Shown here in pieces: positions 1 through 20,367 of a stretch of DNA of 64,000 nucleotides. The notes beneath the pieces were generated by a model. That model ran no database searches and was not told the origin of the DNA. It saw only the letters and a program-made list of their open reading frames with translations. The stretch spans positions 1-64,000 of the forward strand of contig NZ_QNGB01000016.1 in assembly GCF_003298505.1 (NCBI RefSeq), read 5' to 3'. Numbering within the stretch: position 1 is the first letter of the stretch; the number at the start of each line of letters is the position of its first letter. Origin of the DNA: Roseovarius sp. TE539. GTDB lineage: Bacteria; Pseudomonadota; Alphaproteobacteria; Rhodobacterales; Rhodobacteraceae. The translations under genes were made by a program, and so were the position numbers.

Positions 1-871
1 TTCGACGGGGCTCCGCCCGTTCAGGGCTGGATTGGTCCACCGGACCAATCCCGAGACGCCCTTCACCCCAACACCGTTGATGGCGCGTGCCCGGGAAGAC
101 CTCGTCGAGCGCCTTCCAGAACCCCATGGCCCCGTCGCCGACGGCGATCTCCGGCGGAACCGCAAGGCCGCGCTTCTTGATGTCGACCAGCAACTCGCGC
201 CAGCTCTGCGCGCTCTCGCGCACGCCGACCTGGAAGCCCACCAGCTCCTTCTTGCCCTCGGGCGTGGCCCCGAGAATGACCAGCATGCACTCGGCCTGGG
301 CCTCCATGCGGGCCTGCAGATACACGCCATCCGCCCAGATGTAGGCGTACCGGCGCGCCGAGAGATCGCGGTGTTGCCAGCGGTCGTACTCCTGCTTCCA
401 CTCCCCGGTCAGGCGCGAGATCACACTGGGCGACAGGTTCGGCGCATCCTTGCCCAGAATCGCGGCCAGCGCCTCCTGGAAGTCCCCCGTCGAGATGCCG
501 CGCAGATAAAGCACGGGCAGCAGGGCATCGAGGCTGCGCGAGCGTCGCGCCCATTTCGGCAGGATCGCAGAGGTGAAGCGGATCTTCCTCTCCGCCGGGG
601 CATCGGTGGCGCGGTCGCGCACCTTCGGGCGCTGCACGTCGAGCGCGCCGATCCCGGTCTGGATGCTGCGCTCCGGCCCGAAACCGTGCCGCACAACCCG
701 CTGACGACCGTCCGGCAGGACCTCTTCGGCATGCTGCGCGACGAAGGCGTCAGCCTCTGCGCGAAGTGCAGCGGCCAGCATCCGTCGCGCCCCGTCACGG
801 GCGATCTCGGTCAGCGGGTCATCCACAGAGTCCGGCTGACGCAGGGCAATGATCTCTGTATCGTTCTTCAT
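1..871 (-). pseudogene. IS256/mutator-family transposase, truncated
   Basis: The frame opens at an ATG at 871 (MKNDTEII) and stays open to the window edge, about 290 codons. The first part reads as an IS256-type transposase. Two acidic active-site regions are visible, one around WADGVYLQARM (about 320-355) and one around VGDGAMGFW (about 125-140), followed by the family motif GTRHQRCW. After that motif, at about position 75, homology stops abruptly. The remaining codons come from a palindromic GC-rich repeat (29-51), so the third catalytic residue and the C-terminal domain are missing. The element is therefore probably dead, unless the real continuation lies beyond the edge. An inverted repeat (GGCGTATCG at 872-880, CGATACGCC at 921-929) lies just upstream of the start codon. 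Confidence 0.75.
29..51. repeat. Palindromic repeat replacing the transposase C-terminus
   Basis: Perfect 10-base arms GGATTGGTCC / GGACCAATCC are separated by three bases. The palindrome sits exactly where the transposase reading frame loses its homology. It looks like a dispersed REP-like palindrome of this bacterial group, but only one copy is seen here, so that label is an inference. Confidence 0.5.
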
Positions 872-972
872 GGCGTATCGTTCCTCTTATGGAAGTTCTG
901 GCAGGCTTGATCACCCGCCACGATACGCCGCCTTCTCAAACCGCGTCACCCATTTCCCGCCATAGCTCTTTT
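872..972. mobile_element. Right flank/terminal region of the IS256-type element
   Basis: This is the non-coding strip between the transposase start codon and the stop codon of the neighbouring oxidoreductase at 974. It holds the GGCGTATCG/CGATACGCC inverted repeat and a GC-rich end ending near TTTCCCGCCATAGCTC. The true terminal inverted repeat cannot be proved because the other end of the element is not in the window. The insertion lies within a few bases of the oxidoreductase stop codon. Confidence 0.4.
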
Positions 973-973
973 G

Positions 974-1996
974 TCAGCAACCAGCCGTACAACCATAGTT
1001 CGGTTCGACGGCAGTCCCGGTATTGGCGGATTGCGCACAGGCGAGTGCGATGGCGAGCGCCGCGCGGCCATCTTGCGCTGTGGCAGATGGCGCGCGGTCT
1101 TCGGTTACGGCCTGATGGAATTCATCCAAGGCATTGTAGAAAGACTGATCAAAACGCTCCAGAAAGAAGTGTTTGAGCGGTTCGCGCGCCACGGTTCTGG
1201 CCTTGTTCCAGCGCACCAGATTGTCGTCGCGGTGATTGAGCGTCTGCACCATGCCCTTGTCGCCAAAGGCTTCAAGCCGCTGGTCGAACCCGTAAGCGCA
1301 GGCGCGGGAATTGTTGATATGAAGCAGCGCGCCCGAGGGCATTTTCAGCGTGGTCATGGTCATGTCGAAATCGCCCTCGGCGCCGATCCGGTCGTCGAAC
1401 ATGCAGGATCCGGCGGCCATGACCTCGGCCGGGCGTTCGCCCGCGATCCAGCAGAGCAGGTCGATATCGTGGATCGCGGCATCAACGAAATACCCCCCCG
1501 AGACGCACACATATTCAATGGGCGGCGGGCTGGGCTCGCGCGACCAGCTCATCAGCATGTTGAGCCGCCCGACCTCGCCGCGCGTCACGGCGTCGCGCAG
1601 GGCGGCATTGTCCGGATCAAAGCGCCGGTTGAACCCCAGCATGAAAGGCACGGGATAGGCGTGCAATGCGCTCATGGCGCGGTCCACCCGCTCCAGAGAC
1701 TGGTCCAGCGGCTTCTCGCAATAGATCGGCTTGCCCGCGCGGGCTGCGGCCTCGATGTAATCCACATGGGTGTCGGTCGGCGTGGCGATCACCACCGCAT
1801 CCACTGCCGGATCGGCCAGCACCGCGTCCAGGTCATCCATCGCGCGCCCGCCATACTGCTCGGCGGCCTTGGTGGCCGAGCTCATGCGCGGGTTGTAGAT
1901 GACCTCAAGCCGAAGGCCGGGATGGGCGCCTATCTTGGGCCCATAGACATGGGCCATGCGGCCGGTGCCCATCAGGGCCAGTCCAAGCGTCTGCAT
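974..1996 (-). CDS. Gfo/Idh/MocA-family oxidoreductase (inositol 2-dehydrogenase-like)
   Basis: A 340-aa NAD(P)-dependent dehydrogenase, probably acting on a cyclitol or sugar in the cytoplasm. The N-terminal Rossmann fold shows GTGRMAHVY, the family motif CEKPL is at about residue 95, and the C-terminal domain carries the catalytic-type HDID segment (AAIHDIDLL). It resembles the protein at 6765-7769 throughout (shared GFNRRFDP and HINNSR), so the two are paralogues. The ATG at 1996 overlaps the TGA of the upstream GMC gene, and AAGGAG lies 8 bases upstream. A GTG at 1999 is the alternative start. It is the second gene of a two-gene operon. The C-terminus (CTAGC) is unusual and ends beside the IS element. 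Confidence 0.85.
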   Translation of the reverse strand: MQTLGLALMGTGRMAHVYGPKIGAHPGLRLEVIYNPRMSSATKAAEQYGGRAMDDLDAVLADPAVDAVVIATPTDTHVDYIEAAARAGKPIYCEKPLDQSLERVDRAMSALHAYPVPFMLGFNRRFDPDNAALRDAVTRGEVGRLNMLMSWSREPSPPPIEYVCVSGGYFVDAAIHDIDLLCWIAGERPAEVMAAGSCMFDDRIGAEGDFDMTMTTLKMPSGALLHINNSRACAYGFDQRLEAFGDKGMVQTLNHRDDNLVRWNKARTVAREPLKHFFLERFDQSFYNALDEFHQAVTEDRAPSATAQDGRAALAIALACAQSANTGTAVEPNYGCTAGC

Positions 1997-3597
1997 CACG
2001 CGTACTCCTTGGCGTCTTCGAGGATCAGGGCCGCGGCCTTCTCGCCGATCATGATCGAGGCCGCGTTGGTGTTGCCGGTGACGATGCGCGGCATGATCGA
2101 GGCATCGGCCACGCGCAGCCCCTTGATACCGTGAACCTTTAGGCGCGGATCGACCACGGCATCTTCGCCGACACCCATCTTGCAGGTGCCGACCGGGTGC
2201 AGCAGGGACAACCCGTTTGAGCGGCAGTATTCCAGCAACTCATCCTTGGATTGCACATCCTTTCCCGGCGAGATCTCGTAATCCACGCAGTCCGACATCG
2301 GCGCCGTGGCGGCGATCTTCCTTCCGAATTGCAAACCGGCGATCGCGGCGCGCCGATCTGCGTCTTCCGAGAAGAAATTGAATTGGATCTCCGGCTGATC
2401 CGTGGGAGCCGGGCCGGAGATCCTGACACGCCCGCGGGAGTTCGGGCGCATGTGTTCGGCAAGAATGGTGAAGCCCGAGAAGGGATGCGGCTTGAGATGT
2501 TCATCGGTACACCAGGCCATGAAAGTGACCATCATGTCGGGGCGGTCCACTTCCGGACCGGAGCAGATGAAGGTATTGGAGTAATTGCCATTATCGGCAA
2601 ACGGACCGGTGCGGAAGATCAGGTGCCGCAAGAGCTGCAAGCCGCCCTTGATCTTGTTGTTGTAAAGGTCGTTCACCGTGGAATGCACAGTCGAGCGATA
2701 CTCTGCCCCGATGCCGAAATGGTCTTGCAGGTTCTCGCCCACGCCTTGCAGGTCGTGTTCAACCTCGATCCCGTGATCTTGCAGAAGCGCCCCGGGGCCG
2801 ATGCCGGAGAGTTGCAGGAGCTGCGGTGAATTGAACGTGCCGCCGCTCAGTATGATCTCGCGCCGCGCTCGGGCCTCATGCGTGCCGCGCCGGTCGGACC
2901 AGCGCACGCCGGTCGCGCGCTTTCCCTCCAGCGTGATGCGCTGCACCATGGCGTTCAGTGTCAGGTCGATGTTCTTTTTGGCGGCCCCGCGCAGGTAGCC
3001 CGCCGCCGTGCTCCAGCGCATGCCCTTCTTCGTCGTGGTCTGGACATAGCCGGTGCCCGCCTGCTGGGCGCCGTTGAAATCGTCATTGCGCGGCACGCCG
3101 AGCGCCTCGGAGGCCGCGTGAAACGCCTCGCCGAGCGCATGTTCGGTGCGGATATCCGACACCGCGACCGGCCCGCCGGTGCCGTGGAAGTCATCCGCCC
3201 CGCGCTCCTGATCCTCGCAGGACTTGAAATAGGGCAGCACGCCGTCCCAGCCCCAGCCGGTGCACCCCGCCGCTTCCCAGCCGTCGAAATCCTGCGGCTG
3301 GCCGCGCATGTAGATCATCCCGTTGATGGAGCCCGTCCCGCCCAGCACCTTGCCGCGCGGCTGAAAGAGGCGGCGATGGTTCAGATGCGGCTCTGGCGCG
3401 CTTTCATAGCACCAGTTCACCGAGCGGTTGGCATAGAGCATCGAATAGCCGAGCGGGATATGGATGAACGGGTTGCGGTCCTTTCCGCCGGCTTCCAGAA
3501 GCAGGACGCTGTGCCCGGTCTCGGCCAGCCGGCCGGCCACCGCACAGCCCGCAGAGCCTGCCCCGATCACGATGTAGTCGTATTCCGCTTGCGCCAT
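1996..3597 (-). CDS. GMC-family FAD oxidoreductase (choline/alcohol dehydrogenase-like)
   Basis: A 533-aa flavoprotein. The N-terminal ADP-binding motif is IGAGSAGCAVAG (residues about 9-20), GMC signature regions include GGTGSINGM and GGTFNSPQLLQLSG, and the C-terminal active-site region has LLHPVGTCKMG with HPVG histidine and then NTNAASIMIGEKAA. Family members oxidise alcohols such as choline or polyols; the substrate here is unknown. Start: the ATG at 3597 is preceded by AAGGAGG (about 3602-3608). The frame is open further upstream to 4041, but that extension has no family resemblance. It leads the operon with the dehydrogenase at 974-1996, and an operator-like site lies at 3657-3671. Confidence 0.88.
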   Translation of the reverse strand: MAQAEYDYIVIGAGSAGCAVAGRLAETGHSVLLLEAGGKDRNPFIHIPLGYSMLYANRSVNWCYESAPEPHLNHRRLFQPRGKVLGGTGSINGMIYMRGQPQDFDGWEAAGCTGWGWDGVLPYFKSCEDQERGADDFHGTGGPVAVSDIRTEHALGEAFHAASEALGVPRNDDFNGAQQAGTGYVQTTTKKGMRWSTAAGYLRGAAKKNIDLTLNAMVQRITLEGKRATGVRWSDRRGTHEARARREIILSGGTFNSPQLLQLSGIGPGALLQDHGIEVEHDLQGVGENLQDHFGIGAEYRSTVHSTVNDLYNNKIKGGLQLLRHLIFRTGPFADNGNYSNTFICSGPEVDRPDMMVTFMAWCTDEHLKPHPFSGFTILAEHMRPNSRGRVRISGPAPTDQPEIQFNFFSEDADRRAAIAGLQFGRKIAATAPMSDCVDYEISPGKDVQSKDELLEYCRSNGLSLLHPVGTCKMGVGEDAVVDPRLKVHGIKGLRVADASIMPRIVTGNTNAASIMIGEKAAALILEDAKEYA

Positions 3598-3656
3598 CCG
3601 GTCCTCCTTGGTTGCCAGAGACTGCCGGAGGGCGGCGGCCCTTTGAATGATTAAAG

Positions 3657-3671
3657 TGTCAGGTCTGGACA
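3657..3671. promoter_or_regulatory. Operator-like inverted repeat, site 1 (GMC operon)
   Basis: TGTCAG-GTC-TGGACA, the first of four related sites (consensus TGTCCA-N3-TGGACA). It lies 60 bases upstream of the GMC gene and is the copy closest to that divergent promoter. Confidence 0.55.
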
Positions 3672-3699
3672 GAATCCCGGTCGCAGGTTCGGGCGCGAC

Positions 3700-3714
3700 A
3701 TTCCAGATTGGACA
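3700..3714. promoter_or_regulatory. Operator-like inverted repeat, site 2
   Basis: ATTCCA-GAT-TGGACA, 31 bases upstream of the Gfo/Idh/MocA gene at 3746. With site 1 it places one copy before each gene of the divergent pair. The right half TGGACA is identical in all four copies. Confidence 0.6.
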
Positions 3715-3745
3715 TGTGGCATGGACCGAAGAGGAGAACAGGAGC

Positions 3746-4861
3746 ATGAACAAGCCAGAAATCGGCATCGGACTTGTGGGATCGGGGTTCATGGGGCGTT
3801 GCCACGCCAATGCGTTCCGTTCGGTTCCGGGGCTGTTCGAGGTGCCCACCGAGCCGCGGTTGACCATGCTTGCCGAAGCAAGCGACGATCTGGCAGCCAG
3901 GGCGGCGCAGGCGCTCGGCTTTGCGCGCGGCACAGGCGACTGGCAGGCGCTGGTCAGCGATAACGAAGTGGATATCGTGGCGATCACCGCGCCCAATTTG
4001 CTGCATGCGCCAATTGCCCATGCGGCCATCGCGGCGGGCAAGACGGTCTATTGCGAAAAGCCGCTCTCGACCACGGCGGCGCTGGCGCTCGAGATGACCG
4101 AGGCGGCGGAGGCGGCGGGCGTGGTCACGCTTGTGGGCTTCAACTTCCTGCGCAATCCCATGATCAAGCTGGCGCGCGAGATCATCGAAAGCGGCGAGAT
4201 CGGGGATATCACCGGCTTTCGCGGCCGCCATGCGGAAAACTACATGGCCGACGCCGAGGTGCCGCATTCTTTCCGGACCGATCCGCAGGGCGGCGGGGCG
4301 GTGGCCGATATCGGCAGCCATATCATTTCCATGGCGCGCTACCTGATTGGCCCGATGGCCGAGGTCCAGGCGGAGTGCCGGACGATCCACGCCGCCCGGC
4401 CCGTAGCGCCCGGCGCGTTCGAGCGTGCCCCGGTAGAGGTGGATGACATGACCCACGCGCTGGTGCGCTTTGGAAACGGGGTGAGCGGCAGCCTCGAGGC
4501 CAACTGGGCCGCGACCGCCCGCACCATGGACCTGTCATGGGAGATCACCGGAACCAAGGGAGCGCTCGCCTTTACGCAGGAGCGGATGAACGAGTTGGAG
4601 CTTTGGTCCGGCGCGGCGGGGCGCAGCGGGTATACGCGGATCGAATCCGGCCCGGCCCATCCGCCCTATGGCCAGTTCTGCCCCGCGCCGGGGCATCATC
4701 TGGGGTTCACTGACCTCAAGGTGATCGAGGTGGCCGAATTGCTCGCCGCACATGCTGGCGGCGCGTCCTGCGGCCCGGACTTTCGCGAGGCCTACGAGGT
4801 GCAGCGCACTGTCGAGGCAATGCAGGCGTCACATGCCAAGCGGCAGTGGGTGGCGCTGTGA
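3746..4861 (+). CDS. Gfo/Idh/MocA-family oxidoreductase
   Basis: A 371-aa NAD(P)-dependent dehydrogenase. The N-terminal nucleotide-binding motif is GLVGSGFMG, CEKPLS follows at about residue 100, and the C-terminal domain has the VADIGSHIISMARYL segment, with His in the usual catalytic neighbourhood. It is more distant from the two inositol-dehydrogenase-like paralogues in this window and has a long insertion before the last third. Start ATG at 3746 with GGAG upstream; an open in-frame extension to 3647 covers the operator sites and is rejected. It is monocistronic: it ends two bases before the stop of the convergent regulator gene. The substrate is probably a sugar, sugar acid or cyclitol related to the island's transported compound. 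Confidence 0.85.
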   Translation: MNKPEIGIGLVGSGFMGRCHANAFRSVPGLFEVPTEPRLTMLAEASDDLAARAAQALGFARGTGDWQALVSDNEVDIVAITAPNLLHAPIAHAAIAAGKTVYCEKPLSTTAALALEMTEAAEAAGVVTLVGFNFLRNPMIKLAREIIESGEIGDITGFRGRHAENYMADAEVPHSFRTDPQGGGAVADIGSHIISMARYLIGPMAEVQAECRTIHAARPVAPGAFERAPVEVDDMTHALVRFGNGVSGSLEANWAATARTMDLSWEITGTKGALAFTQERMNELELWSGAAGRSGYTRIESGPAHPPYGQFCPAPGHHLGFTDLKVIEVAELLAAHAGGASCGPDFREAYEVQRTVEAMQASHAKRQWVAL

Positions 4862-4863
4862 GC

Positions 4864-6633
4864 CTATAGGCCCATGGCCCGCTCGCAGCGCGCCTGGGCG
4901 TCGCGCAGGGCGGCCGCGGGCTTCTTGTTGCGCAAAAGCATGGTGTGGATTTCCTCGCCCAGGATGCGGACCAGCGTGTTGAATTGCGGCACGGCGGGGC
5001 GTGCCCAGGTCTGAAGCTGGCCGGCGCGCGCCATCTGGTCCACGGTGGCGATGACGGGGCGGCCATGGGCCACGACCGGGTCGTTGCAAACGCTGAAACG
5101 CGAACTCACGAGGCTGCCATTTTCGATGTAGAGTTTCGTGGCTGCAGCCGAGGTCAGGGTGCGCGCGGCCTTGGTCACGTCATCGATCCGGGCGGATTTG
5201 AGGTTGGATGGCAGGCAGATGTTCCATCCGCCCAGCGGCGCGCTGCGCGGAATGTCCGGCGCCGTGGGATGCGGCAGGTAGCCCGTGCGCCCGTAGCCGG
5301 GAGAATCCGGCTGGCTCTCGATCATTGGCAGGATCTGGGTGTAGCTATAGGCCATTGCCGCGTGGCCATCGGCATAACATCGGGCACGCTCGTACCATGA
5401 CATCTGAAGCACGTTGGCCGGCGACCAGGAGAGCAGCTCGACAAGGAACTCCGCTGCCTCCAACGCCTCGGGGCTGTCGAGCATCGGGATGAGCTCTTCA
5501 CCGGCAAGCTGTTGGTCGTGGAAGCCCTTGCCCACGCGCCGCAGCTTGAGGACGGGCTGGCCGAAATCCGCCATCAGCATCATGAAACTCGTGCCCACCG
5601 GCGTGCCGCGCGCGCCGTTCCAGCAGATACCGCTGAGGCCGCGCGCAGACCCGTGCAGCCGGCGCGCAAAGTCCAACACCTCGCTGAGACGCTGCGGTGG
5701 CTCCAGTCCGTTTTGCTCAAAAATATCAGTGCGGTAGAGGAATAGTTCCGGCGTGGTCTGGACCGGTATGCCGTAAAGCGCATCACCGCGCTGCACGGTG
5801 GAAAGCGCCTCTGGATGGAAATCCATCAGGTCGCGCGCCTCACCCTCGTCAAGCATCTGGACAGGGCGAATGGCCTCGGCCTGGATCATTTCTTCCATCC
5901 AGCAGACATCGCAGGTGACCAGATCATATCGCGATTGGGCGCGCCCGGCATTGTCGAGGATCTCCTGATGCAGCCGATCAATGCTGAGCGCCCGAACTTC
6001 AATCTCAGTTCCGAAATGCATCTCGAACTGGCGTTTGAGCTTCTGCATCGCCATGAAACCCGCATCAGCGTGCAGAAGGACACGCAAACCGCCGGGCAGA
6101 TCGAGCTTGCTGGGCATAACCGGCAGCGGGGCGACGGCCGCGGTGGCCAGGTAGGATGCGCCAAAGAAATAGTCGGTGTCCTCCGACAGGCCGAACGCCG
6201 TCCCCAGCAACGATTTTACCCGACGCAGGTAGTTGACCCACGCGGCGATCATCTGCCGCGTCGGATGCAGCGAGAAGGTCTTTCCGGTGCGGGTGCGGGG
6301 GCGTTTGACGATCAGCCCGTTCTCGACCATTTCCTCGATCAACCGATGGGCCGTACCGCGCGCCAGGCCTGAGCCGTCTATCAGCGATGACGGTGTCTCC
6401 AGCCGGCCGTGAAGATGCGAGCGCATGAGTTGAACCATGATCGGCACTTCACGTGCGGGCATGCCCAACAGCAGCGAGTCCTGGGTCTCCGTCATGAAGC
6501 GGCTGACAAAATCGAGAAACCGCTCCAACTCATGCGCCGACATTTCGTTGAAGAAGCTCCCGGTGCCGGCCGGAGGCGGTGTTTCGGATTCCAGTCTTGT
6601 CATTTCTGCTTTTCTGACCGCGCGTTCTAACAT
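4864..6633 (-). CDS. Regulator: winged-helix DNA-binding part fused to a solute-binding-protein-like domain
   Basis: About 589 aa from the ATG at 6633. Other possible starts are ATG 6603 and GTG 6672; none has an ideal ribosome site. There is no signal peptide, so it should be cytoplasmic. The N-terminal part (roughly residues 30-140) contains a helix-turn-helix/wing pattern: SSLIDGSGLARGTAHRLIEEM, with the wing around KRPRTRTGKTFSL. From about residue 185 to the end the protein reads like a family-1 extracellular sugar-binding protein (LRVLLHADAGF, YDLVTCDVCWMEEM, YGIPVQTTPELFLYRTDIFE, FMMLMADFGQP, GGWNICLP). Inferred role: a one-component sensor in which a maltose-binding-protein fold binds the sugar and controls DNA binding. 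It faces the inositol-dehydrogenase/ABC operon, with an operator-like site between them. Confidence 0.75.
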   Translation of the reverse strand: MLERAVRKAEMTRLESETPPPAGTGSFFNEMSAHELERFLDFVSRFMTETQDSLLLGMPAREVPIMVQLMRSHLHGRLETPSSLIDGSGLARGTAHRLIEEMVENGLIVKRPRTRTGKTFSLHPTRQMIAAWVNYLRRVKSLLGTAFGLSEDTDYFFGASYLATAAVAPLPVMPSKLDLPGGLRVLLHADAGFMAMQKLKRQFEMHFGTEIEVRALSIDRLHQEILDNAGRAQSRYDLVTCDVCWMEEMIQAEAIRPVQMLDEGEARDLMDFHPEALSTVQRGDALYGIPVQTTPELFLYRTDIFEQNGLEPPQRLSEVLDFARRLHGSARGLSGICWNGARGTPVGTSFMMLMADFGQPVLKLRRVGKGFHDQQLAGEELIPMLDSPEALEAAEFLVELLSWSPANVLQMSWYERARCYADGHAAMAYSYTQILPMIESQPDSPGYGRTGYLPHPTAPDIPRSAPLGGWNICLPSNLKSARIDDVTKAARTLTSAAATKLYIENGSLVSSRFSVCNDPVVAHGRPVIATVDQMARAGQLQTWARPAVPQFNTLVRILGEEIHTMLLRNKKPAAALRDAQARCERAMGL

Positions 6634-6681
6634 CTCCCGTTCAAGAATAACGCAGCCGGACCCGTCTGGCACGGTGCAAGA

Positions 6682-6696
6682 ATTCCAATCTGGACA
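6682..6696. promoter_or_regulatory. Operator-like inverted repeat, site 3
   Basis: ATTCCA-ATC-TGGACA lies between the regulator gene (minus strand) and the dehydrogenase/ABC operon at 6765. The central triplet is the reverse complement of GAT in sites 2 and 4. This position would allow autoregulation and control of the transport operon. It lies only about 10 bases from the GTG at 6672, which argues against that codon as the regulator start. Confidence 0.6.
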
Positions 6697-6764
6697 AACC
6701 GGGCGTTGAGGCTGGCGGCATTGCGGGCAATGCTGGCGAAAATTGAAGGCGCAAGGAGGATCAT

Positions 6765-7769
6765 ATGCTGCGTTTCGGGATCATAGGGACCGGTCGCATC
6801 GGGGACATGCATGCGCGACTGGTCGCCTTGCAGCCCGATGCCTCCGTGACCTGGTGCTTCGATGTTTATGAAGAAAGCGCCGGGGCCACCGCCGCGGCTG
6901 TCGGTGCCCGTGCGACGACGGATCTCGATGCTTTGCTGGGTGCGGAGGATGTCGATGCCGTGCTGATCGCGTCGCCAACCAACACGCATGTCGAGATGAT
7001 TCTGCGCTCGGCCGAGGCCGGCAAGCCGATCCTGTGCGAGAAGCCAATCGACGTGAACATCGACAAGGTCGAAGAATGCAAGGAGAAGCTCAGGGCCTTC
7101 GACGTTCCGCTACAACTGGGCTTCAACCGGCGGTTCGACCCGAGCCATGCCGGGGTGCAGCAGGCCGTCGCGCGCGGGGATTTGGGCGACCTGGAGCTGC
7201 TGATCATCACCAGCCGCGACCCGGGCCCGCCGCCGCCGCGCCCGATCCTCGAGGCTTGTGGCGGGCTGTTCCGCGACACCACCATCCACGACATGGACAT
7301 GGCCCGTTTTGTCATGGGGGAAGACCCGGTGGAGGTGTTTACCATGGCGGCCAACCGGGTGGACCCGGTCTTTGCCGAATTGAACGATGTGGACACGGCC
7401 ATGGTCGTGATGCGCGGCGCATCCGGCGCGCTGTGCCATATCAACAACTCACGGCGCACCAACTATGGCTACGACCAGCGAGTCGAGGCCTTTGGTGCGC
7501 AAGGCATGGTGCGCTCGAACAATCAACGCCCGTCTGAGGTGTCGCGCTATGGTGCGGGCGGCACGGCGACGCGCGATGAGCTGCTTTATTTTTTCATCGA
7601 ACGATACCGCGCGGCCTATGAGGCGGAAATTCGTGACTTCATCGACCAGGTGACGGCCGGAAAGCCGCCCAACGTCACCTTTGAAGACGGCCGGCGCGCG
7701 CTCCTGCTCTCTGAGGCGGCGCTGAAATCCTATGAAATCAACAAGCCGGTGGAGGTGGATTACACATGA
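6765..7769 (+). CDS. Inositol 2-dehydrogenase-like Gfo/Idh/MocA oxidoreductase
   Basis: A 334-aa NAD-dependent dehydrogenase of the IolG type. It shows GIIGTGRIGDMH at the N-terminus, CEKPID at about residue 95, LGFNRRFDPSH, and the catalytic-type segment TTIHDMDMARFV. The known family reaction is oxidation of myo-inositol or another cyclitol to an inosose; the actual substrate is not proved. AAGGAGG sits about 6 bases before the ATG. First gene of an operon with an SDR (4-base overlap) and a sugar ABC importer. Paralogue of the gene at 974-1996. Confidence 0.88.
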   Translation: MLRFGIIGTGRIGDMHARLVALQPDASVTWCFDVYEESAGATAAAVGARATTDLDALLGAEDVDAVLIASPTNTHVEMILRSAEAGKPILCEKPIDVNIDKVEECKEKLRAFDVPLQLGFNRRFDPSHAGVQQAVARGDLGDLELLIITSRDPGPPPPRPILEACGGLFRDTTIHDMDMARFVMGEDPVEVFTMAANRVDPVFAELNDVDTAMVVMRGASGALCHINNSRRTNYGYDQRVEAFGAQGMVRSNNQRPSEVSRYGAGGTATRDELLYFFIERYRAAYEAEIRDFIDQVTAGKPPNVTFEDGRRALLLSEAALKSYEINKPVEVDYT

Positions 7770-8641
7770 CGGATTATGAAAGCCCGTATGGAAATGCCGC
7801 CTATCGCGCGGCCTCTGACAGTGACGTGACGTTGGATCGGCAATTTGAAGACAAGGTAGCAGTGGTCACGGGCTCGACCCAGGGGCTCGGGCTTACTGCG
7901 GTCAAGCTCATGCTGCGGCGCGGGCTCAAGGGCGCGCTGATCATGGGCCGCAAGGAGGCCGAGGGCAAGGCCGCCGCAGAGGCCCTGAGCACGCCGGAGC
8001 AGCGCGTCGTCTATCATCAGGCCGACCTGACCGATCTGGGTGATTGCACGTCGGTGCATGAGCGCGCCATTCAGGAATTCGGCAGCTACGACATCCTGGT
8101 CAATTCCGCCGGCATCACGGATCGCGGCGGCATTCTGGATGGCGATGCGGCGCTGTGGGAGCGCACCTTCGCGATCAATGCGCGCGCACCGTTCTTCCTG
8201 ATGCAGAATGCAGCCAACCATTGGCGCGATGTGGGCAAGCCGGGAACCGTGGTCAATGTGGCGACGGTCACCGCCCATGGCGGTGTTCCGTTCCTGACCG
8301 TTTATGCCGCGTCCAAAGCGGCGCTGGTGGCCACCACCAAGAACGCGGCCTTCTCGCTGATGCGCGACGGTATCCGGGTCAACGCCTTGGCCATCGGATG
8401 GATGGACACCCCGGCAGAAGACATCACGCAGAAGACCTATCACGACATGCCCGATGGTTGGCAGAAGGAGGCCGGGGCAAAACTGCCGGCCGGGCGGCTG
8501 CTCGACATGAACGAGGTGGCGCGCTGGATCGCCCATCTGGCCAGCGACGAATCCGGCATCATGACCGGATCGATTCTCGATTTCGATCAGGGGATTATCG
8601 GCTGCTACGAGGCCACGCCCCTGCCCGGGAAACTGCCGTGA
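7766..8641 (+). CDS. SDR-family oxidoreductase
   Basis: A 291-aa short-chain dehydrogenase. A cofactor motif VVTGSTQGLGL lies near residue 33 after an unusual 25-residue N-terminal extension. NSAG is present, and the catalytic Tyr/Lys pair is in VYAASKAAL. The C-terminal part ends in SGSILDFDQGIIG-type sequence (residues TGSILDFDQ). The ATG overlaps the stop of the upstream dehydrogenase as ATGA, so the two are probably translationally coupled and act on the same sugar or cyclitol. The serine before the Tyr-Lys pair appears replaced in VATVTAHGG, where many SDRs have a Ser/Thr; the threonine may serve instead. Confidence 0.85.
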   Translation: MTDYESPYGNAAYRAASDSDVTLDRQFEDKVAVVTGSTQGLGLTAVKLMLRRGLKGALIMGRKEAEGKAAAEALSTPEQRVVYHQADLTDLGDCTSVHERAIQEFGSYDILVNSAGITDRGGILDGDAALWERTFAINARAPFFLMQNAANHWRDVGKPGTVVNVATVTAHGGVPFLTVYAASKAALVATTKNAAFSLMRDGIRVNALAIGWMDTPAEDITQKTYHDMPDGWQKEAGAKLPAGRLLDMNEVARWIAHLASDESGIMTGSILDFDQGIIGCYEATPLPGKLP

Positions 8642-8654
8642 TCGGGTCGGGCCT

Positions 8655-8669
8655 GTTCCAGATTGGACA
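8655..8669. promoter_or_regulatory. Operator-like inverted repeat, site 4
   Basis: GTTCCA-GAT-TGGACA lies 13 bases after the SDR stop and 147 bases before the substrate-binding-protein gene. It suggests an internal regulated promoter for the transporter genes within the 174-base gap. Confidence 0.58.
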
Positions 8670-8815
8670 GAAAGCGAGGCGACGGGCTGAGGCCGGACGG
8701 ATACCCTCTGAGGAGTGATACCAGTGTGGAACAAATTCACGGAGTGCCGTCAGACGGACGGCAAATGAACCGGACTGACACAAGCAAGGTCAGTGCATTC
8801 AAGGGAGGAAACAAA

Positions 8816-9901
8816 ATGACCATCATAAAAAGATTCACAGAAACCAGCACCCTGGCGGCCATCGCGCTGACCGGGTTCGCGGCTGCCCCCGCGGCTTCGG
8901 AAGAGGCAAGCATCTTCTTCATGCTGCCGAACTCCACCACCATCCGCTTCGAGCGTCGCGACGCGCCGCTTTACGTGGCGGCCATGGAAGAGCGGATGCC
9001 CGGCGCCACCGTGACCGTTCAGAACGGCGAAGGCGACCCGGAGCGCCAGCAACGGCTGGTCGAGGATGCACTGGCACAGGGCGCGGATCTGATCGTCTAT
9101 ACCTCGTCAGACGCAAATCTCGCCGCAGGGGCTCTGAAAGCGGCCGAAGAGGCCGGCGTGCCGGTCCTTCTGTACGAACATGACGCGATCGGCGGCAAGG
9201 CCAAGGCGCATGTCCTGTTCAACGCCCGCGCCGTGGGCCAGGCCCAGGGCAAGCGCGCCGCCGAGCTGATCGAGGCGATGCCCGAAGGCACTGTCAAGCT
9301 CACGCGGGTCAAGGGCAACCAGGGCGAATACGGCACCACGCAGTATGAGCTGGGCCAGAACGAATATCTGGATCCATTGATCGAATCGGGCCGCGTCGAG
9401 GTCGTCTGCGAGGATTTCACCCCCAACTGGGACCCGGTCAAGGCGCAATCATTCGCCGAGAACTGCCTGACCCGGACGGGGGGCGATGTGGACATGTTCC
9501 TTGGCATGAATGACGGCACCACCGGCGGATCGGTCGGGGCGCTGATCAGCCAGGGCTTCCAGAAAGGCGAGGTTGTCGTGACGGGCGGGCAGGATGCCAC
9601 CATCGAGGCGGTGCAGTTCGTCGTTCAGGGCTGGCAGGACAACACCATCTTCAAGGACCTGCGGGTGATGGCCGAGGCCGCCGCCGATGTGTCGGTGGAC
9701 ATCCTGAAGGGCGAAGAGCTCTCGGAGGCCTGGATCAACGATAGCGTCAACAACGAATACATGGATATTCCCGCCGCCTTCCTGCCGGTGGAAAACGTGA
9801 CCATCGACAACGTCTCCACCGTGATCGAAGCTGGCCTTTATACTTGGGAAGAGGTCTGCAAGGGCGCCGAAGGCACCCGGGTTTGCCAGGACAACATGTA
9901 A
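8816..9901 (+). CDS. Sugar ABC transporter substrate-binding protein (XylF/FrcB type)
   Basis: 361 aa. The N-terminal signal peptide has a Lys/Arg start, a hydrophobic core LAAIALTGFAA and probable cleavage after APAASEE/A. The mature part is a type-I periplasmic binding fold: IFFMLPNSTTIRFERRD, LVEDALAQGADLIVY, GVPVLLYEHDA, and MNDGTTGG for the hinge/ligand region. GGGAGGA lies about 6 bases before the ATG. It should capture the island's sugar or cyclitol in the periplasm and deliver it to the permease encoded two genes later. The frame continues upstream to 8663, but that part has no signal-peptide logic and is rejected. Confidence 0.88.
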   Translation: MTIIKRFTETSTLAAIALTGFAAAPAASEEASIFFMLPNSTTIRFERRDAPLYVAAMEERMPGATVTVQNGEGDPERQQRLVEDALAQGADLIVYTSSDANLAAGALKAAEEAGVPVLLYEHDAIGGKAKAHVLFNARAVGQAQGKRAAELIEAMPEGTVKLTRVKGNQGEYGTTQYELGQNEYLDPLIESGRVEVVCEDFTPNWDPVKAQSFAENCLTRTGGDVDMFLGMNDGTTGGSVGALISQGFQKGEVVVTGGQDATIEAVQFVVQGWQDNTIFKDLRVMAEAAADVSVDILKGEELSEAWINDSVNNEYMDIPAAFLPVENVTIDNVSTVIEAGLYTWEEVCKGAEGTRVCQDNM

Positions 9902-9974
9902 CCGGCACATCCCGAGCGAACGCGGTGTCGGCGGTCATGGCCGCCGGCACTCACTCTTACCAGGGGCGAAACAG

Positions 9975-10739
9975 ATGACAGAACCCATCCTCCGCTTGCG
10001 CGGCATCACCAAGCATTTCGGCAACGTCAAGGCGCTGACAGATGTTTCGCTCGACCTGGAGCCCGGCAAGGTCGTGGCGCTCGTGGGCGACAACGGGGCC
10101 GGAAAATCGACACTGGTCAAGGTGATGGCGGGCGCGCACCGGCCCGACAGGGGCGAATACCTGTTCGAAGGGCGCAAGGTCGAGGGGGCGACCCCGGCCA
10201 GCGTGGCGGATATGGGCGTGCAAACGGTCTATCAGGATCTCGCCTTGTGCAACAATCTCGACGCGGTGCAGAACCTCTTTCTGGGGCGTGAGCTGACCGG
10301 CCCGTGGTGGACCGGCTTTCGTGTGACCCGCGCCTCGGCCGAGAAAAAGGCCAAGGACGTGCTCAGGCGCATGCGGCTCGACTCGATTTCGCTCAGCCGT
10401 AACGTGGGGGCCATGTCCGGCGGTCAGCGTCAGAACATCGCCATCGCCCGCTCGATCCTTTGGGAACCCAAGGTTGTCCTGCTGGATGAACCCACGGCGG
10501 CGCTGAGCCATTCGGCGGCGGAGCAGGTTGGCAGCCTGGTGCGCGAACTGGCCTCGCACGGGCTGGCGGTTCTGGTGATCAGCCACGACATTCATCACTT
10601 CGTGCTGGACAATACCGACCGGATCGAGGTGCTGCGGCTGGGGCGCAACGCAGGCAGTTTCAACTCCAGGGACGTGACCGGCGAACAGGTGGTCAACGTG
10701 ATGGTCGGCGGCGACGAAACCGTCAACATGGCCGGATGA
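9975..10739 (+). CDS. Sugar ABC transporter ATP-binding protein
   Basis: 254 aa with one nucleotide-binding domain: Walker A GDNGAGKST (residues about 36-44), signature MSGGQRQNIAIARS, Walker B VVLLDEPTAAL, and switch His in VISHDIHH. A single domain is typical of FrcA-type carbohydrate importers, whereas RbsA and XylG carry two, so it probably works as a homodimer. It lies between the binding-protein and permease genes in one operon (74 and 13 bases of spacing). Confidence 0.9.
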   Translation: MTEPILRLRGITKHFGNVKALTDVSLDLEPGKVVALVGDNGAGKSTLVKVMAGAHRPDRGEYLFEGRKVEGATPASVADMGVQTVYQDLALCNNLDAVQNLFLGRELTGPWWTGFRVTRASAEKKAKDVLRRMRLDSISLSRNVGAMSGGQRQNIAIARSILWEPKVVLLDEPTAALSHSAAEQVGSLVRELASHGLAVLVISHDIHHFVLDNTDRIEVLRLGRNAGSFNSRDVTGEQVVNVMVGGDETVNMAG

Positions 10740-10752
10740 GGTAGGCAATCCG

Positions 10753-11955
10753 ATGACAGCTACAACAACACCCAACACAACCGCACAGGCAAAACGGGGC
10801 CTGACCGAGCGTCTGGGCAACGAATTGCGCTTTGTCCCCGTGGCGCTGGGACTGGTCGCGCTGTTTCTCTTTTTCGCGACGCAATCCGATGTCTTCCTGA
10901 CCAGCCGCAACCTCAACAACCTGCTGATCCAGTCCACCGTGACCGGGATCATCGCGCTGGGTCTGGTCTTTGTCCTGCTCACCGGCGAGATCGACCTGTC
11001 AGTGGCCGCGACATCCGGCGTCGCGTCGGTGTTCATGGCCAAGATGGTGGTGGATGCCGGGCTACCGATCCCGCTTGCCATCCTTCTCGGCGTCGGGGCT
11101 GGGTTGCTCATCGGGGCCATATCCGCGCGATGGATCACCCTGATCGGCGTGCCGTCCTTCGTGGTCACGTTGGGCGTCGGGCTCCTGCTCAACGGTGTAC
11201 AACTGTTGCTCCTGCCCAATACCGGGCGCTACAACCTGCTCAATACAGGGGTCGAGGATCTGGCCGCGACCTATGTGTCAGGGCTGGGCGCGTGGGCGCT
11301 GGTGCTGATCGCGATCGCGCTCTTTGCGCTGATCCGGCTGACCACGTTCCGCTCACGGCAGCGCGCGGGCCTGCCCGCCTCGCTGGGCGGGGGCGTGCTC
11401 TTTCCGGTGGCGATTGTCGGCGGGGTGCTGATCGGCTTGCTCATGTTCCTCGAAAACCAGCGCGGCTTGCCGATGCCGGTGATACTGTTCATCGGCTTGC
11501 TTGGCGTCATGTCCTATATAGCCCATGAAACCCGCTTCGGCACCTATCTCTATGCCATCGGCGACAATGCCGAGGCCGCCCGGCGCGCCGGTGTCAAGGT
11601 GGACAGGATCAAGATCACCGCCTTCGCCATCGCCGGCGGCATGGCGGCCTTTGGCGGCATCCTGTCGGCCTCGCGCATTCTCGGCGTCTCGGTCTCCTCC
11701 GGCGGCGGGGTCGGCGGCGGCGCGTTGCTTCTTGAAAGCATCGCCGCCGCCGTCATTGGAGGGGTATCTCTCTTTGGCGGGCGCGGTATGGTGATTGGCG
11801 CGCTTTTCGGGGCGCTGATTATCGGAACCGTGTCCAACGGTCTCAACCTGATGGGCGTGGCCAACGAGGCACGGCTGATTGTGACCGGCCTGTTGCTGGT
11901 CCTGGCCGTTTCCATTGACCGCGGGATCGAGAAAATCGCCGGTCCGGCCGGGTAG
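10753..11955 (+). CDS. Sugar ABC transporter permease (XylH/FrcC type)
   Basis: A 400-aa inner-membrane protein with about ten hydrophobic segments, starting at PVALGLVALFLFFATQS. It contains the branched-chain/monosaccharide permease motif LTGEIDLSVAATSG and the C-terminal loop GGGVGGGALLLESIAAAVIGG. The length fits XylH-type permeases (about 390-430 aa) rather than RbsC (about 320). It is the last gene of the operon; two hairpins follow at 12018-12083. Confidence 0.9.
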   Translation: MTATTTPNTTAQAKRGLTERLGNELRFVPVALGLVALFLFFATQSDVFLTSRNLNNLLIQSTVTGIIALGLVFVLLTGEIDLSVAATSGVASVFMAKMVVDAGLPIPLAILLGVGAGLLIGAISARWITLIGVPSFVVTLGVGLLLNGVQLLLLPNTGRYNLLNTGVEDLAATYVSGLGAWALVLIAIALFALIRLTTFRSRQRAGLPASLGGGVLFPVAIVGGVLIGLLMFLENQRGLPMPVILFIGLLGVMSYIAHETRFGTYLYAIGDNAEAARRAGVKVDRIKITAFAIAGGMAAFGGILSASRILGVSVSSGGGVGGGALLLESIAAAVIGGVSLFGGRGMVIGALFGALIIGTVSNGLNLMGVANEARLIVTGLLLVLAVSIDRGIEKIAGPAG

Positions 11956-12110: not shown

Positions 12111-12578
12111 TAGAGCAATTTCCGATCAATCTGCATCGTATCCGCAGGCGGCGAAGTAGTTCTCGCATTCTTGCGGTGTGAAGCAGTCGACAAGCTCGCC
12201 GATCATATCCCAGAGCCCCGTCACCGTTCGCACGGCAGCCTTGCGGAGCAACGCCTTGAGTTTGGAGAAGGCCATTTCGATGGGGTTTAAGTCGGGGCTG
12301 CGGGATCGCATATCGCCACCCTGCGGCTTCGGCGCGAAGGACCCCGTGGAGCGCCGCTCGTTGTCCCAGCGGATTGCCGTCGAGGGCGCGACCCCGTACT
12401 GCGCGGCCGCAGCACGCCGGCTCCGGCCGGTATCAATCGCCGCGATCACCCGTTCCCTCAGGTCCATGGAGAGTGGTTTGCCCATTGCTGCCCCCAAAAT
12501 CTGCCTCGGGGTCAGTGAATCAAACCTTCGGCCCGTTGGGAATCCCAAATCGATTCAGGTCGTTGGGAAAATGCTCTA
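12111..12578 (-). mobile_element. Internally deleted IS630-type element, MITE-like
   Basis: A 468-base element bounded by TA dinucleotides (12111-12112 and 12577-12578), the known IS630/Tc1 target duplication. The ends form imperfect terminal inverted repeats: left TAGAGCAATTTCC followed further in by CTG-ATCG, and right (reverse complement) TAGAGCATTTTCC followed by CTG-ATCG at the same spacing. Inside is a transposase remnant without a catalytic core. Such a derivative could move only with a transposase supplied in trans. Confidence 0.75.
12126..12485 (-). pseudogene. IS630-family transposase with the catalytic core deleted
   Basis: From the ATG at 12485 the frame encodes an N-terminal helix-turn-helix (MGKPLSMDLRERV, then RRAAAAQYGVAPSTAIRW). 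Right after PKPQGGD it jumps to the C-terminal motif SPDLNPIEMAFSKLK and the normal C-terminus. The intervening DDE domain, roughly 120-150 codons in intact relatives, is absent while the frame is kept. The product of about 119 aa could still bind DNA but cannot catalyse transposition. Confidence 0.8.
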
Positions 12579-17504: not shown

Positions 17505-18200
17505 TCATTGCTTCGAGTCGGGATCAGAGTAGTCGCCTTCGTTCCCCGCGTCAGCCTTCGTGCCGGCTTTTTCCTTCAGAGTCTTCAGCGCTTCCCACTT
17601 GGCCCTGAGCACCCCGCGCCGACGGTTCTGGTACGCCTGTATCAGTGGAAGACTGATGTAGTAGCAAATGAGCCCGCAGACGATCCCGGGTATGATGCCC
17701 CCGATCATGTAAGGAAAGAAGATGTCCTCGTAGAACCCGCTGAGATTGCTCCAGTCGGCACGGTCGTCGGTGAACAGGGCCCAGATATTGGCGTTGATGT
17801 TATGCCAGGCCTCGGCAAAGCTGTGCCCGAGCGTCTGGTGTAGCTCAGCGTCCTTCGGCCCGCGCAGCCCGAGGAGAAAATACCCGGTGTTGATCGACAG
17901 CACCCCGATGGGCACGAAGGTCAGTGGATTTCCAAAGAACGTCGCCAGGATCGACGCGACGACATTACCCCGAATCAGCCACGCCACCAGCGCGGCACCA
18001 AAGAAATGAAGGCCGAAGAAGGGCGAAAACGTCACGAACACACCCGCGAAGATACCGCGCGCGATCCGGTGCGGCGGATCGGGAAGGCGGCGAACGCGGT
18101 GCTTGATATAGTGGAAGGCACGGCCCCAGCCGCCTTTCGGCCATAGAAAGCCCGCCACGATCTTCCAAAGTGGGCGTCTGTCTCGGCGTTTGAAGACCAC
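17505..18200 (-). CDS. DUF2062-domain membrane protein
   Basis: About 231 aa from the GTG at 18200 ([12 protein letters not shown]), where the upstream AGGAAG overlaps the rsh stop. A GTG at 18230 is an alternative. The conserved DUF2062 core is visible: [17 protein letters not shown], then [19 protein letters not shown] and a C-terminal membrane segment ([19 protein letters not shown]). The tail is charged. Biochemical role unknown. It lies directly between rsh and pdxJ, a common arrangement in this group. Confidence 0.8.
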
Positions 18201-18210
18201 CTCGTGCTTC

Positions 18211-20367
18211 CTACTTCCTGAAGGCGGCACTGCCCGTGTCGCACGACGAGTCGCGGTGCCGATTCACCTCGGCCACATCGCTTTCGGCATCCAGCGCCGA
18301 CATGACACTGTGCAGATGTTCTGCATCGCGCAGTTGCACGTCAACGATCAGGCGGTAGAAATCGGGTTTGCGGTCAAGGAACGTCAGGTTCGAAATATTG
18401 GCGCGGCGTTCTCCGATCAAGGTGCAGATGCGGCCTAGGACGCCGGCGTCGTTGCCAATGGTCACATCGAGCGACACGTCGTAGACTGCAGGATGCAGTC
18501 CGGAGTGCCAGTGCAGGTCAAGCCAGCGCTCCGGCTGATCCTCGTAGGTGCTCAGCGCCGCGCAGTCGATGGCATGAACAACGACGCCGCGGCCGCGCCA
18601 GGTGATGCCCACGATCCTCTCGCCCGGCAGCGGTTGGCAACAGCGGGCACGGTCAAAACGCTGGTCGGGGCCAAGGCCGATCACCGCGCGCTCCCGTCGG
18701 ACTTCCTCGCCCTCGGCGGGCCGGACATCGGGGTAAACCGCGCCCAGCACGTCCTGACCGGTCAGTTCGGCACTGCCCAGGCGGGCCAGAACCTCGTCGC
18801 GATCCGCTAGGCGGAGGGTGCGCGCGGCCCGTTCGAGCGCCTTGTCCGTGGCGCGCTTGCCCACATGTTCAAAAGCCGATCGGGCCAATTCCCGGCCAAG
18901 GCGCACGTAACGGTCACGGTCCAGTTCGCGCAGGGCACGACGGATCGCCGCCTTGGCCTTGCCGGTTGTGGCGATGTCCAGCCAGGTGGCCTGGGGCGTC
19001 TGGCCGTCGGCGGTGATGACCTCGACGGACTGGCCATTCTTGACCCGCGTCCAGAGCGGCACCCGCATTCCGTCGACCTTTGCGCCGACCGTGGCATTGC
19101 CGATCCGCGTGTGTATGGCATAGGCGAAATCAATAGGTGTCGCACCACGCGGCAGCTTGACGACATCGCCCTTGGGCGTGAAACAGAAAACCTTGTCGGC
19201 ATACATTTCCAGCTTCACGGCCTCGAGAAACTCGTCATGATCTTCCTCGGCGTCGAACTGTTCGGTCAACGAGGAAATCCATTTCGCCGGGTCAACCGCG
19301 AAGGGGTTCTCGCTTCGCACCCCGTCGCGGTACGACCAGTGCGCGGCGACGCCGGTTTCGGCCACGTCATGCATCTGGCGGGTACGGATCTGCACCTCCA
19401 CGCGCTTGCCGTCGCGGCCCGAAACGGTGGTGTGGATCGACCGGTAACCGTTTGATTTGGGCTGGCTGATGTAATCCTTGAACCGGCCCGGCACAGCGCG
19501 CCACCGTTGGTGGATGGCGCCCAGCACCGCGTAGCAATCATTTTCCGAGCCCGTGACGATCCGGAACCCGTAGATGTCGGACAGCCGGGAAAAGCCCATT
19601 TCCTTTTCCTGCATCTTGCGCCAGATCGAATAGGGCTTCTTGGCGCGGCCCAGGACCTCGGCCTCTATCCCGACCTTGTCCAGTTCCTTGCGCATGTCGC
19701 CGGTGATGCGGTCGATCACGTCGCCGGCTTCTTTCTGCAGGGTGATGAACCGCCGGATAATCGAGGCGCGTGCATCCGGGTTCAGGACGCGAAAGGCCAG
19801 ATCCTCAAGTTCCTCGCGCATCCATTGCATGCCCATCCGGCCGGCCAGCGGGGCGTAGATATCCATCGTTTCACGCGCTTTTCGCACCTGCTTTTCCGGG
19901 CGCATGGCCTTGATCGTGCGCATGTTGTGAAGACGATCGGCCAGCTTCACGAGGATCACCCGCAGATCCTTTGACATCGCCATGAAAAGCTTGCGGAAAT
20001 TCTCGGCCTGCTGGGTTTCCGTACTGGAAAGCTGCAGATTGGTCAGCTTGGTGACACCGTCGACAAGATCGGCGATCTCGCCACCGAAGCGGTTTTCAAT
20101 TTCGGAATACGAGGCACGCGTATCCTCAATCGTGTCATGCAGGAGCGCCGTGATGATGGTGGCATCGTCCAGCCGCTGTTCGGCCAGAACCGCGGCAACC
20201 GCGACGGGATGGCTGAAATACGCCTCGCCGGAATGGCGGTACTGGCCCTTGTGCATCTCTCGGCCGTAGTCATAGGCGGCACGGATCAGCGCCTCGTCGG
20301 TCCGGGGGTTGTAGGCGCGGACAAGGCGGATCAGGTCTTCGACGGCGATCATACCTTCCGCGCCCAT
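18211..20367 (-). CDS. rsh: Bifunctional (p)ppGpp synthetase/hydrolase
   Basis: 718 aa. It makes and degrades the alarmone (p)ppGpp in the stringent response. The domain order is complete: HD hydrolase (YFSHPVAV, then LLHDTIEDT), synthetase (RLHNMRTIKAM, EVQIRTRQMHDVAETG), TGS (DVVKLPRGATPIDFAYAIHT) and a C-terminal ACT domain (DVTIGNDAGVLGRICTLIGE). The HD residues and the synthetase signature look intact. Start 20367 gives 718 aa; ATG 20352 (MIAVEDL) is also plausible. Fifteen bases separate it from rpoZ upstream, a common alphaproteobacterial pair. Confidence 0.95.
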   Translation of the reverse strand: MGAEGMIAVEDLIRLVRAYNPRTDEALIRAAYDYGREMHKGQYRHSGEAYFSHPVAVAAVLAEQRLDDATIITALLHDTIEDTRASYSEIENRFGGEIADLVDGVTKLTNLQLSSTETQQAENFRKLFMAMSKDLRVILVKLADRLHNMRTIKAMRPEKQVRKARETMDIYAPLAGRMGMQWMREELEDLAFRVLNPDARASIIRRFITLQKEAGDVIDRITGDMRKELDKVGIEAEVLGRAKKPYSIWRKMQEKEMGFSRLSDIYGFRIVTGSENDCYAVLGAIHQRWRAVPGRFKDYISQPKSNGYRSIHTTVSGRDGKRVEVQIRTRQMHDVAETGVAAHWSYRDGVRSENPFAVDPAKWISSLTEQFDAEEDHDEFLEAVKLEMYADKVFCFTPKGDVVKLPRGATPIDFAYAIHTRIGNATVGAKVDGMRVPLWTRVKNGQSVEVITADGQTPQATWLDIATTGKAKAAIRRALRELDRDRYVRLGRELARSAFEHVGKRATDKALERAARTLRLADRDEVLARLGSAELTGQDVLGAVYPDVRPAEGEEVRRERAVIGLGPDQRFDRARCCQPLPGERIVGITWRGRGVVVHAIDCAALSTYEDQPERWLDLHWHSGLHPAVYDVSLDVTIGNDAGVLGRICTLIGERRANISNLTFLDRKPDFYRLIVDVQLRDAEHLHSVMSALDAESDVAEVNRHRDSSCDTGSAAFRK

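Follow-up and report, generated by a model that had tools for sequence, protein, structure and literature searches.

The window, by which we mean the whole 64-kb stretch of DNA analysed here, contains an island of dehydrogenase and sugar-type transporter genes (Table 1). Within it, and on the minus strand, lies a gene whose product we read as a regulator of polyol or cyclitol uptake and oxidation genes. Divergent from this gene lie those for a Gfo/Idh/MocA dehydrogenase, an SDR oxidoreductase and the parts of a transporter, namely binding protein, ATPase and permease (6765–11955), in keeping with an earlier sequence-only reading that had the regulator facing the transporter operon. A type I binding fold serves the island's transporter, whereas its presumed regulator has the type II fold.

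Table 1 Genes, protein domains and operator-like sites of the island (window coordinates)
Feature	Position	Strand	Basis and remarks
Gfo/Idh/MocA dehydrogenase, inositol 2-dehydrogenase-like	974..1999	minus	TIGR04380, 359.7 bits (cut-off 355)
GMC oxidoreductase	1996..3597	minus	
Operator-like site TCCAGATTGGA	3702..3712		Between divergent GMC and Gfo/Idh genes; exact match
Gfo/Idh/MocA dehydrogenase, levoglucosan-dehydrogenase-like below cut-off	3746..4861	plus	301 bits (cut-off 650)
Regulator gene	4864..6633	minus	589 aa plus stop; ATG at 6633; relatives align over full length
Maltose-binding-protein-like domain (type II, family 1), about residues 180–587	4873..6096	minus	Pfam SBP_bac_8/SBP_bac_1; PDB 5iai
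Predicted winged helix, about residues 59–124	6262..6459	minus	AlphaFold2; Pfam HTH_IclR (80–111); residue conservation
Operator-like site TCCAATCTGGA	6684..6694		Regulator/Gfo/Idh intergenic region; exact; kept in window and 7 orthologues; 17-bp form 6681–6697
Gfo/Idh/MocA dehydrogenase, inositol 2-dehydrogenase-like	6765..7769	plus	TIGR04380, 400 bits (cut-off 355)
SDR oxidoreductase	7766..8641	plus	
Operator-like site TCCAGATTGGA	8657..8667		Between SDR and transporter binding-protein genes; exact match
Type I binding protein, Peripla_BP_4, XylF-like below cut-off	8816..9901	plus	Start read from sequence
ABC ATPase, sugar type, single domain	9975..10739	plus	
Sugar-type ABC permease, BPD_transp_2, GguB-like below cut-off	10753..11955	plus	

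Beyond the genes of the table, the sequence reads like an IS256-type transposase at positions 1–900 (minus strand, at the contig end) and like a fragment of an IS630-type transposase at 12126–12548 (minus strand), both on reading of the translations. The position of the island (974–11955) between these two readings suggests that it may have moved recently.

In the window protein, residues 197–518 match the Pfam profiles SBP_bac_8 (E 4.6e-14) and SBP_bac_1 (E 9.2e-13), both past cut-off, whilst residues 80–111 match HTH_IclR just below it (E 1.8e-4; 21.7 bits against a cut-off of 22). An AlphaFold2 model of the protein, built on an alignment of 81 rows of which five are plain binding proteins added for depth, has a pLDDT of 87.1 and a pTM of 0.83, with both domains at high confidence; an earlier model from six sequences (pLDDT 45) was discarded except as the first hint of a winged helix. 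The predicted helices 59–74, 81–88 and 92–104 and strands 108–112 and 120–124 follow the winged-helix order, and helix 126–147 and a low-confidence linker (150–164) join this part to the solute-binding domain. The best PDB structural match among those listed is 5iai (Foldseek, VIA-align; Z 47.3, rmsd 2.2, 394 residues aligned), followed by 1eu8 (Z 42.2) and 4rya (Z 40.7), with the fold spanning residues 174–589 or so. By profile the closest solved sequences are again 5iai (259 bits), which we take to hold ribitol, and 4rya (235 bits), named as a sorbitol-binding protein. The regulator is thus predicted to combine the SBP_bac_1/SBP_bac_8 profile with the type II fold of family-1 sugar solute-binding proteins, and the claim that the 400 residues after the N-terminal part resemble such a protein is upheld by a complete maltose-binding-protein-type domain.

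The evidence for the N-terminal part is of a different kind. A fold search with the whole model returned binding-protein folds alone among the matches listed, the large domain filling the list; the case for the winged helix is therefore built on predicted secondary structure and on HMM matches that are weak. SBP_bac_1 is matched by all 81 alignment rows, and several winged-helix models match weakly, MarR_2 in 16 of 81 rows and HTH_IclR in 9 of 81 (E ≤ 0.01; five of the rows being plain binding proteins). The best PDB profile match of this part is a SlyA-like MarR protein (E 0.0042). The helix-turn-helix and wing that had been proposed within the first 140 residues are therefore recovered in the prediction, at about residues 59–124, but their description as MarR/GntR-like holds only as far as the winged helix itself: models of the IclR, MarR and other types all match weakly, and assignment to MarR or GntR is at most tentative.

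The export signal typical of family-1 sugar solute-binding proteins was not found by N-terminal hydropathy, upstream extension included. The highest 15-residue hydropathy in the first 60 residues is 1.17, with nothing resembling a signal peptide, and when the protein is read from an in-frame upstream extension the maximum over the first 100 residues is 0.61; for comparison, the island's own secreted binding protein, of type I, reaches 1.77. The absence of a signal peptide, already proposed from the sequence, thus holds even when the start is placed further upstream.

The protein belongs to a sizeable family. Its own genome encodes a second member (L018, 44% identity). Matches at E ≤ 0.001 occur in 17 of 60 genomes (full-length in five, own genome counted), at E ≤ 1e-30 in 9 of 385 genomes of a class-wide sample (eight full-length) and at E ≤ 1e-60 in 174 of 390 Rhodobacterales genomes. 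At least 77 of these 390, the own genome included, have a match over both parts, as counted from the matches listed, and one further genome (G767) has the family member in two adjoining pieces; the weaker Rhodobacterales matches listed are confined to the binding domain, and most fall in ORFs about 430–540 aa long. Of 356 relatives found in genome contigs by tblastn (E ≤ 1e-3), the best 80 were retained, and their hosts include Rhodobacteraceae, Rhizobiales, other Alphaproteobacteria, Halomonas/Vreelandella, Marinobacterium and two Granulosicoccaceae bins. The same architecture therefore recurs in other genomes, in Rhizobiales, Halomonas and Marinobacterium as well as in Rhodobacterales; a search of viral contigs for relatives found none. 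In all, 86 loci were read, two of which (L021 and L077) end at contig ends; the frame is uninterrupted in 85, the exception being L063. Three distant members (L106, L107 and L108; 28–29% identity) come from small alphaproteobacterial genomes of about 1.4 Mb.

The genes around the regulator vary across these loci. All island neighbours are kept in L025, L026 and L027, and two are visible on the short contig of L021; L022–L024 keep the other side of the island without the Gfo/Idh–transporter side. In the wider family, where gene names were assigned by reading the sequences, an SDR group is present at 50 loci, and two ORF groups that read as full-length sugar-type ATPases are present at 36 and 23. 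Other regulators are few among the 45 largest ORF groups listed: IclR-like in eight loci and LacI-like in four, the names again by reading. Several Nioella/Marivita-type islands (L022–L026, L061 and L085) contain a second family member, for example at 17660–19342 on the minus strand of L026; these second members share 35–36% identity with the window protein, except in L085, where the figure is 43%. In several of them a further sugar-type transporter lies between the two family members, a middle block that is absent from the window island and from L027.

Conservation extends over both parts of the protein. In 83 aligned sequences T94, R97, R111, G117, K118, H123 and P124, which fall in the predicted recognition helix and wing, are at 100%, and with S121 included the set is conserved at 99–100%. 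Thirteen residues of the binding domain are likewise at 100%: W245, P290, Q292, P295, E296, N339, R342, G343, T344, W413, R416, G468 and G469. In the wider set of 81 rows, with distant and plain relatives, most invariant residues drop to 90% or more, or below. The binding-domain residues bear on the idea that the protein regulates transcription through DNA binding but uses its binding-protein domain for dimerisation or for docking on another protein, such as the transporter, with no small-molecule ligand. A binding-protein domain lacking a signal peptide, and so outside its usual compartment, would fit such a role; against this, the same residues do not vary among the 83 sequences, although these come from very different loci, which suggests that a ligand-binding site has been kept. 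We regard the docking role as unlikely.

Further clues to function come from intergenic DNA. In eight of eight intergenic regions aligned (the window and seven orthologous loci) the block TTTGTCCA-NNN-TGGAATT is kept, with the inverted repeat TCCA-N3-TGGA at its core. The window holds three exact copies of the core, against 0.95 expected (three or more were seen in 8 of 100 shuffles), and all three fall within short intergenic regions of the island. The sequence-only reading had spoken of four sites, giving no positions; three exact copies are what the 64-kb window contains. When the 17-bp form was sought in the window with up to three mismatches, 12 places were found against 11.45 expected, that is, no enrichment. 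In L025, L026 and L027 a site lies about 2.0–2.2 kb away from the start of the regulator, on the side where the window has its copy ahead of the transporter binding-protein gene, and L022–L024, which are without the Gfo/Idh–transporter side, retain the site ahead of the regulator.

Across the family, the DNA around the regulator start was searched from 350 bp ahead of the matched region to 60 bp within it. TCCA-N3-TGGA is present there in 40 of 84 loci, whereas 200 dinucleotide shuffles gave 0.81 on average and never more than 4; the 40 include the eight window-clade loci, and in L047 and L073 the site is just inside the matched region. It is found in a single Halomonas/Marinobacterium-type locus out of 27 (L073), compared with 39 of the 57 others, a group that contains the site-positive Granulosicoccaceae loci L028 and L030 and in which 18 loci are without it. 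Counted at ORF starts, the strict site is near those of 30 of 80 members of the regulator group, 12 of 22 and 5 of 15 in two transporter binding-protein groups and 10 of 54 in the SDR group, compared with 6 of 485 ungrouped ORFs. A count of 8 of 20 for ORF cluster 9 is inflated by regulator coding sequence: matches about 1376 and 1509 bases past the start of the regulator match, which lie inside the coding region at corresponding positions in several loci, were put down to coding coincidence. The flanks of the core differ between groups: in the window clade all eight sites have G before the core and A after it, whilst the other loci have A before it in 28 of 37 and T or C after it in 33 of 37. 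The intergenic region between the paralogue L018 and a divergent sugar-type transporter operon contains ATCCAATTTGGAT. The pattern WTCCANNNTGGAW, which does not fit the three island sites because their flanks differ, occurs at seven places in the own genome, one of them at a family member, and the reversed control pattern at two; of the seven places two were examined. One place in the own genome, C10:35827, lies inside a long ORF that reads as cobN-like and was taken as chance. Taken together, these sites make it appear, on sequence evidence, that the family recognises a single conserved DNA site located next to genes for sugar or polyol uptake. A sigma-70 scan of 3560–8850 found no promoter-like site, and repression or activation consequently cannot be argued from promoter overlap.

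In the Halomonas-type loci, 17 of 21 aligned regions carry a variant, TCCAATCTGGTCA, ahead of the SDR gene. A pattern derived from it, and set after most of its matches were known, was run over 555 kb and matches a single place in each of 23 Halomonas/Marinobacterium-type loci out of 28; the sites lie 2.7–2.95 kb from the regulator start (4.3 kb in L065), and the two Marinobacterium loci are without one. Palindromes upstream of 20 Halomonas/Marinobacterium regulators revealed no shared repeat. Many of the Halomonas and Marinobacterium loci (L034, L038 and L040–L072) are, by reading, close to genes for maleylacetate reductase, intradiol dioxygenase, amidohydrolase and nitroreductase, a mix that is unusual for a sugar-type transporter locus.

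That TCCA-N3-TGGA also stands ahead of transporter genes, and not just the regulator gene, might mean that it is the operator of some other regulator acting on the same transport genes. We think this very unlikely: the site tracks the regulator gene through loci with different neighbours, no other regulator-like group is common among the 45 largest ORF groups listed, and both the flanking bases and the recognition-helix sequence differ between the window clade and the other loci. An ordinary secreted solute-binding protein with a wrongly called N terminus is a disfavoured reading and to our minds virtually out of the question. In its favour, the C-terminal 400 residues look typical of such proteins, matches confined to the binding domain are common in Rhodobacterales (most in those shorter ORFs) and 4 of 84 relatives show a hydrophobic stretch above 1.6 ahead of the winged helix, in a stop-to-stop frame that may not be coding there. 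Against it, the N-terminal part is conserved among relatives with a winged helix predicted there, the frame is unbroken through the match at every locus except L063, and the window protein is without a signal-like stretch even in the upstream in-frame extension.

The HMMs, the structure model, family conservation and the operator-like site all speak for a cytoplasmic protein in which a predicted winged helix is coupled to a maltose-binding-protein-like sensor. We hold it highly probable that this protein is a one-component regulator, with its winged helix at TCCA-N3-TGGA and its cytoplasmic flytrap sensing a polyol or cyclitol or an oxidised product. In such a regulator the N-terminal winged helix would bind the inverted repeat, probably as a dimer, in three target regions: the one its own gene shares with the divergent transporter operon, the one separating the GMC gene from its Gfo/Idh neighbour, and the one preceding the transporter binding-protein gene. 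The C-terminal sugar ABC solute-binding domain, free of a signal peptide, would remain in the cytoplasm, where binding of an imported polyol or cyclitol, or of a dehydrogenase product, would make it open or close, and this movement would alter DNA binding and so repress or activate the island genes. Binding to TCCA-N3-TGGA, binding as a dimer, the ligand class and allostery are what we infer; polyol or cyclitol as the ligand class is a guess drawn from the closest binding proteins (5iai and 4rya) and the many dehydrogenase genes nearby.

With less assurance, we lean towards a broader reading in which the window protein represents a widespread and so far undescribed proteobacterial regulator family that arose when a winged helix became joined to a polyol-type CUT1 solute-binding protein, with a cytoplasmic flytrap that reads imported polyols or cyclitols, and a shared operator, TCCA-N3-TGGA, through which transporters with type I binding proteins are controlled. 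Narrow literature searches found no published description of this family. Were the broader reading true, it would add a further natural path from transport binding protein to gene switch, here with a domain of the maltose-binding-protein type, to those taken by LacI (type I fold) and by SgrR and LysR (other type II domains). With a candidate operator known for the family, DNA binding, ligand and allostery become directly testable. Public annotation probably labels family members as extracellular solute-binding proteins, to judge from the Pfam matches, a name under which regulators of sugar and polyol use may go unnoticed in Rhodobacterales and Halomonas. The family also offers a natural template for biosensors; designed fusions of periplasmic binding proteins with DNA-binding domains have been described (PMC6079105).

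How does this arrangement compare with known proteins? The solved structures 5iai, 1eu8 and 4rya share the family-1 fold but are transporter subunits, whereas the regulator adds a winged helix and is without a signal peptide. LacI/GalR proteins are regulators that use a transporter-type binding protein of the type I fold as sensor; the likeness is one of sensor logic, since LacI differs in both fold and helix-turn-helix. Neither the LacI helix-turn-helix nor the type I fold was matched by the window protein or the 81 rows, and the sensor fold matches type II proteins. LysR-type regulators come closer, with an N-terminal winged helix and a type II periplasmic fold as sensor, but theirs is a shorter two-lobed domain, and the LysR helix-turn-helix and substrate-binding models found no match in the window protein or the 81 rows. 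With IclR and MarR proteins the likeness is confined to the weak winged-helix matches: the IclR effector domain was not matched in the window protein or the 81 rows, where the C-terminal part is a solute-binding domain, and MarR proteins are short and without a separate sensor domain. SgrR_N, the helix-turn-helix model of the SgrR family, and SBP_bac_5 went unmatched both in the window protein (E ≤ 1) and across the 81 rows (13 families, E ≤ 0.01).

The nearest parallel in plan is nevertheless SgrR of E. coli, which regulates itself and sgrS (PMC13060122, PMC4021124), and its V. cholerae homologue DsvR, which has an N-terminal helix-turn-helix and a C-terminal SBP_bac5 domain (PMC13060122). 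They have in common with the present family an N-terminal helix-turn-helix and a C-terminal solute-binding domain that is not exported (a prediction in our case), and differ in that DsvR carries SBP_bac5 whereas the present family carries SBP_bac_1/8 beside sugar-type ABC transporter genes. The fusion had been called unusual from the sequence; the contrast with the type I fold of LacI stands, but precedent is not lacking, as SgrR and DsvR already join a helix-turn-helix to a solute-binding domain. The plan itself is thus known from SgrR and DsvR, and the new element is the family-1 sugar-binding sensor.
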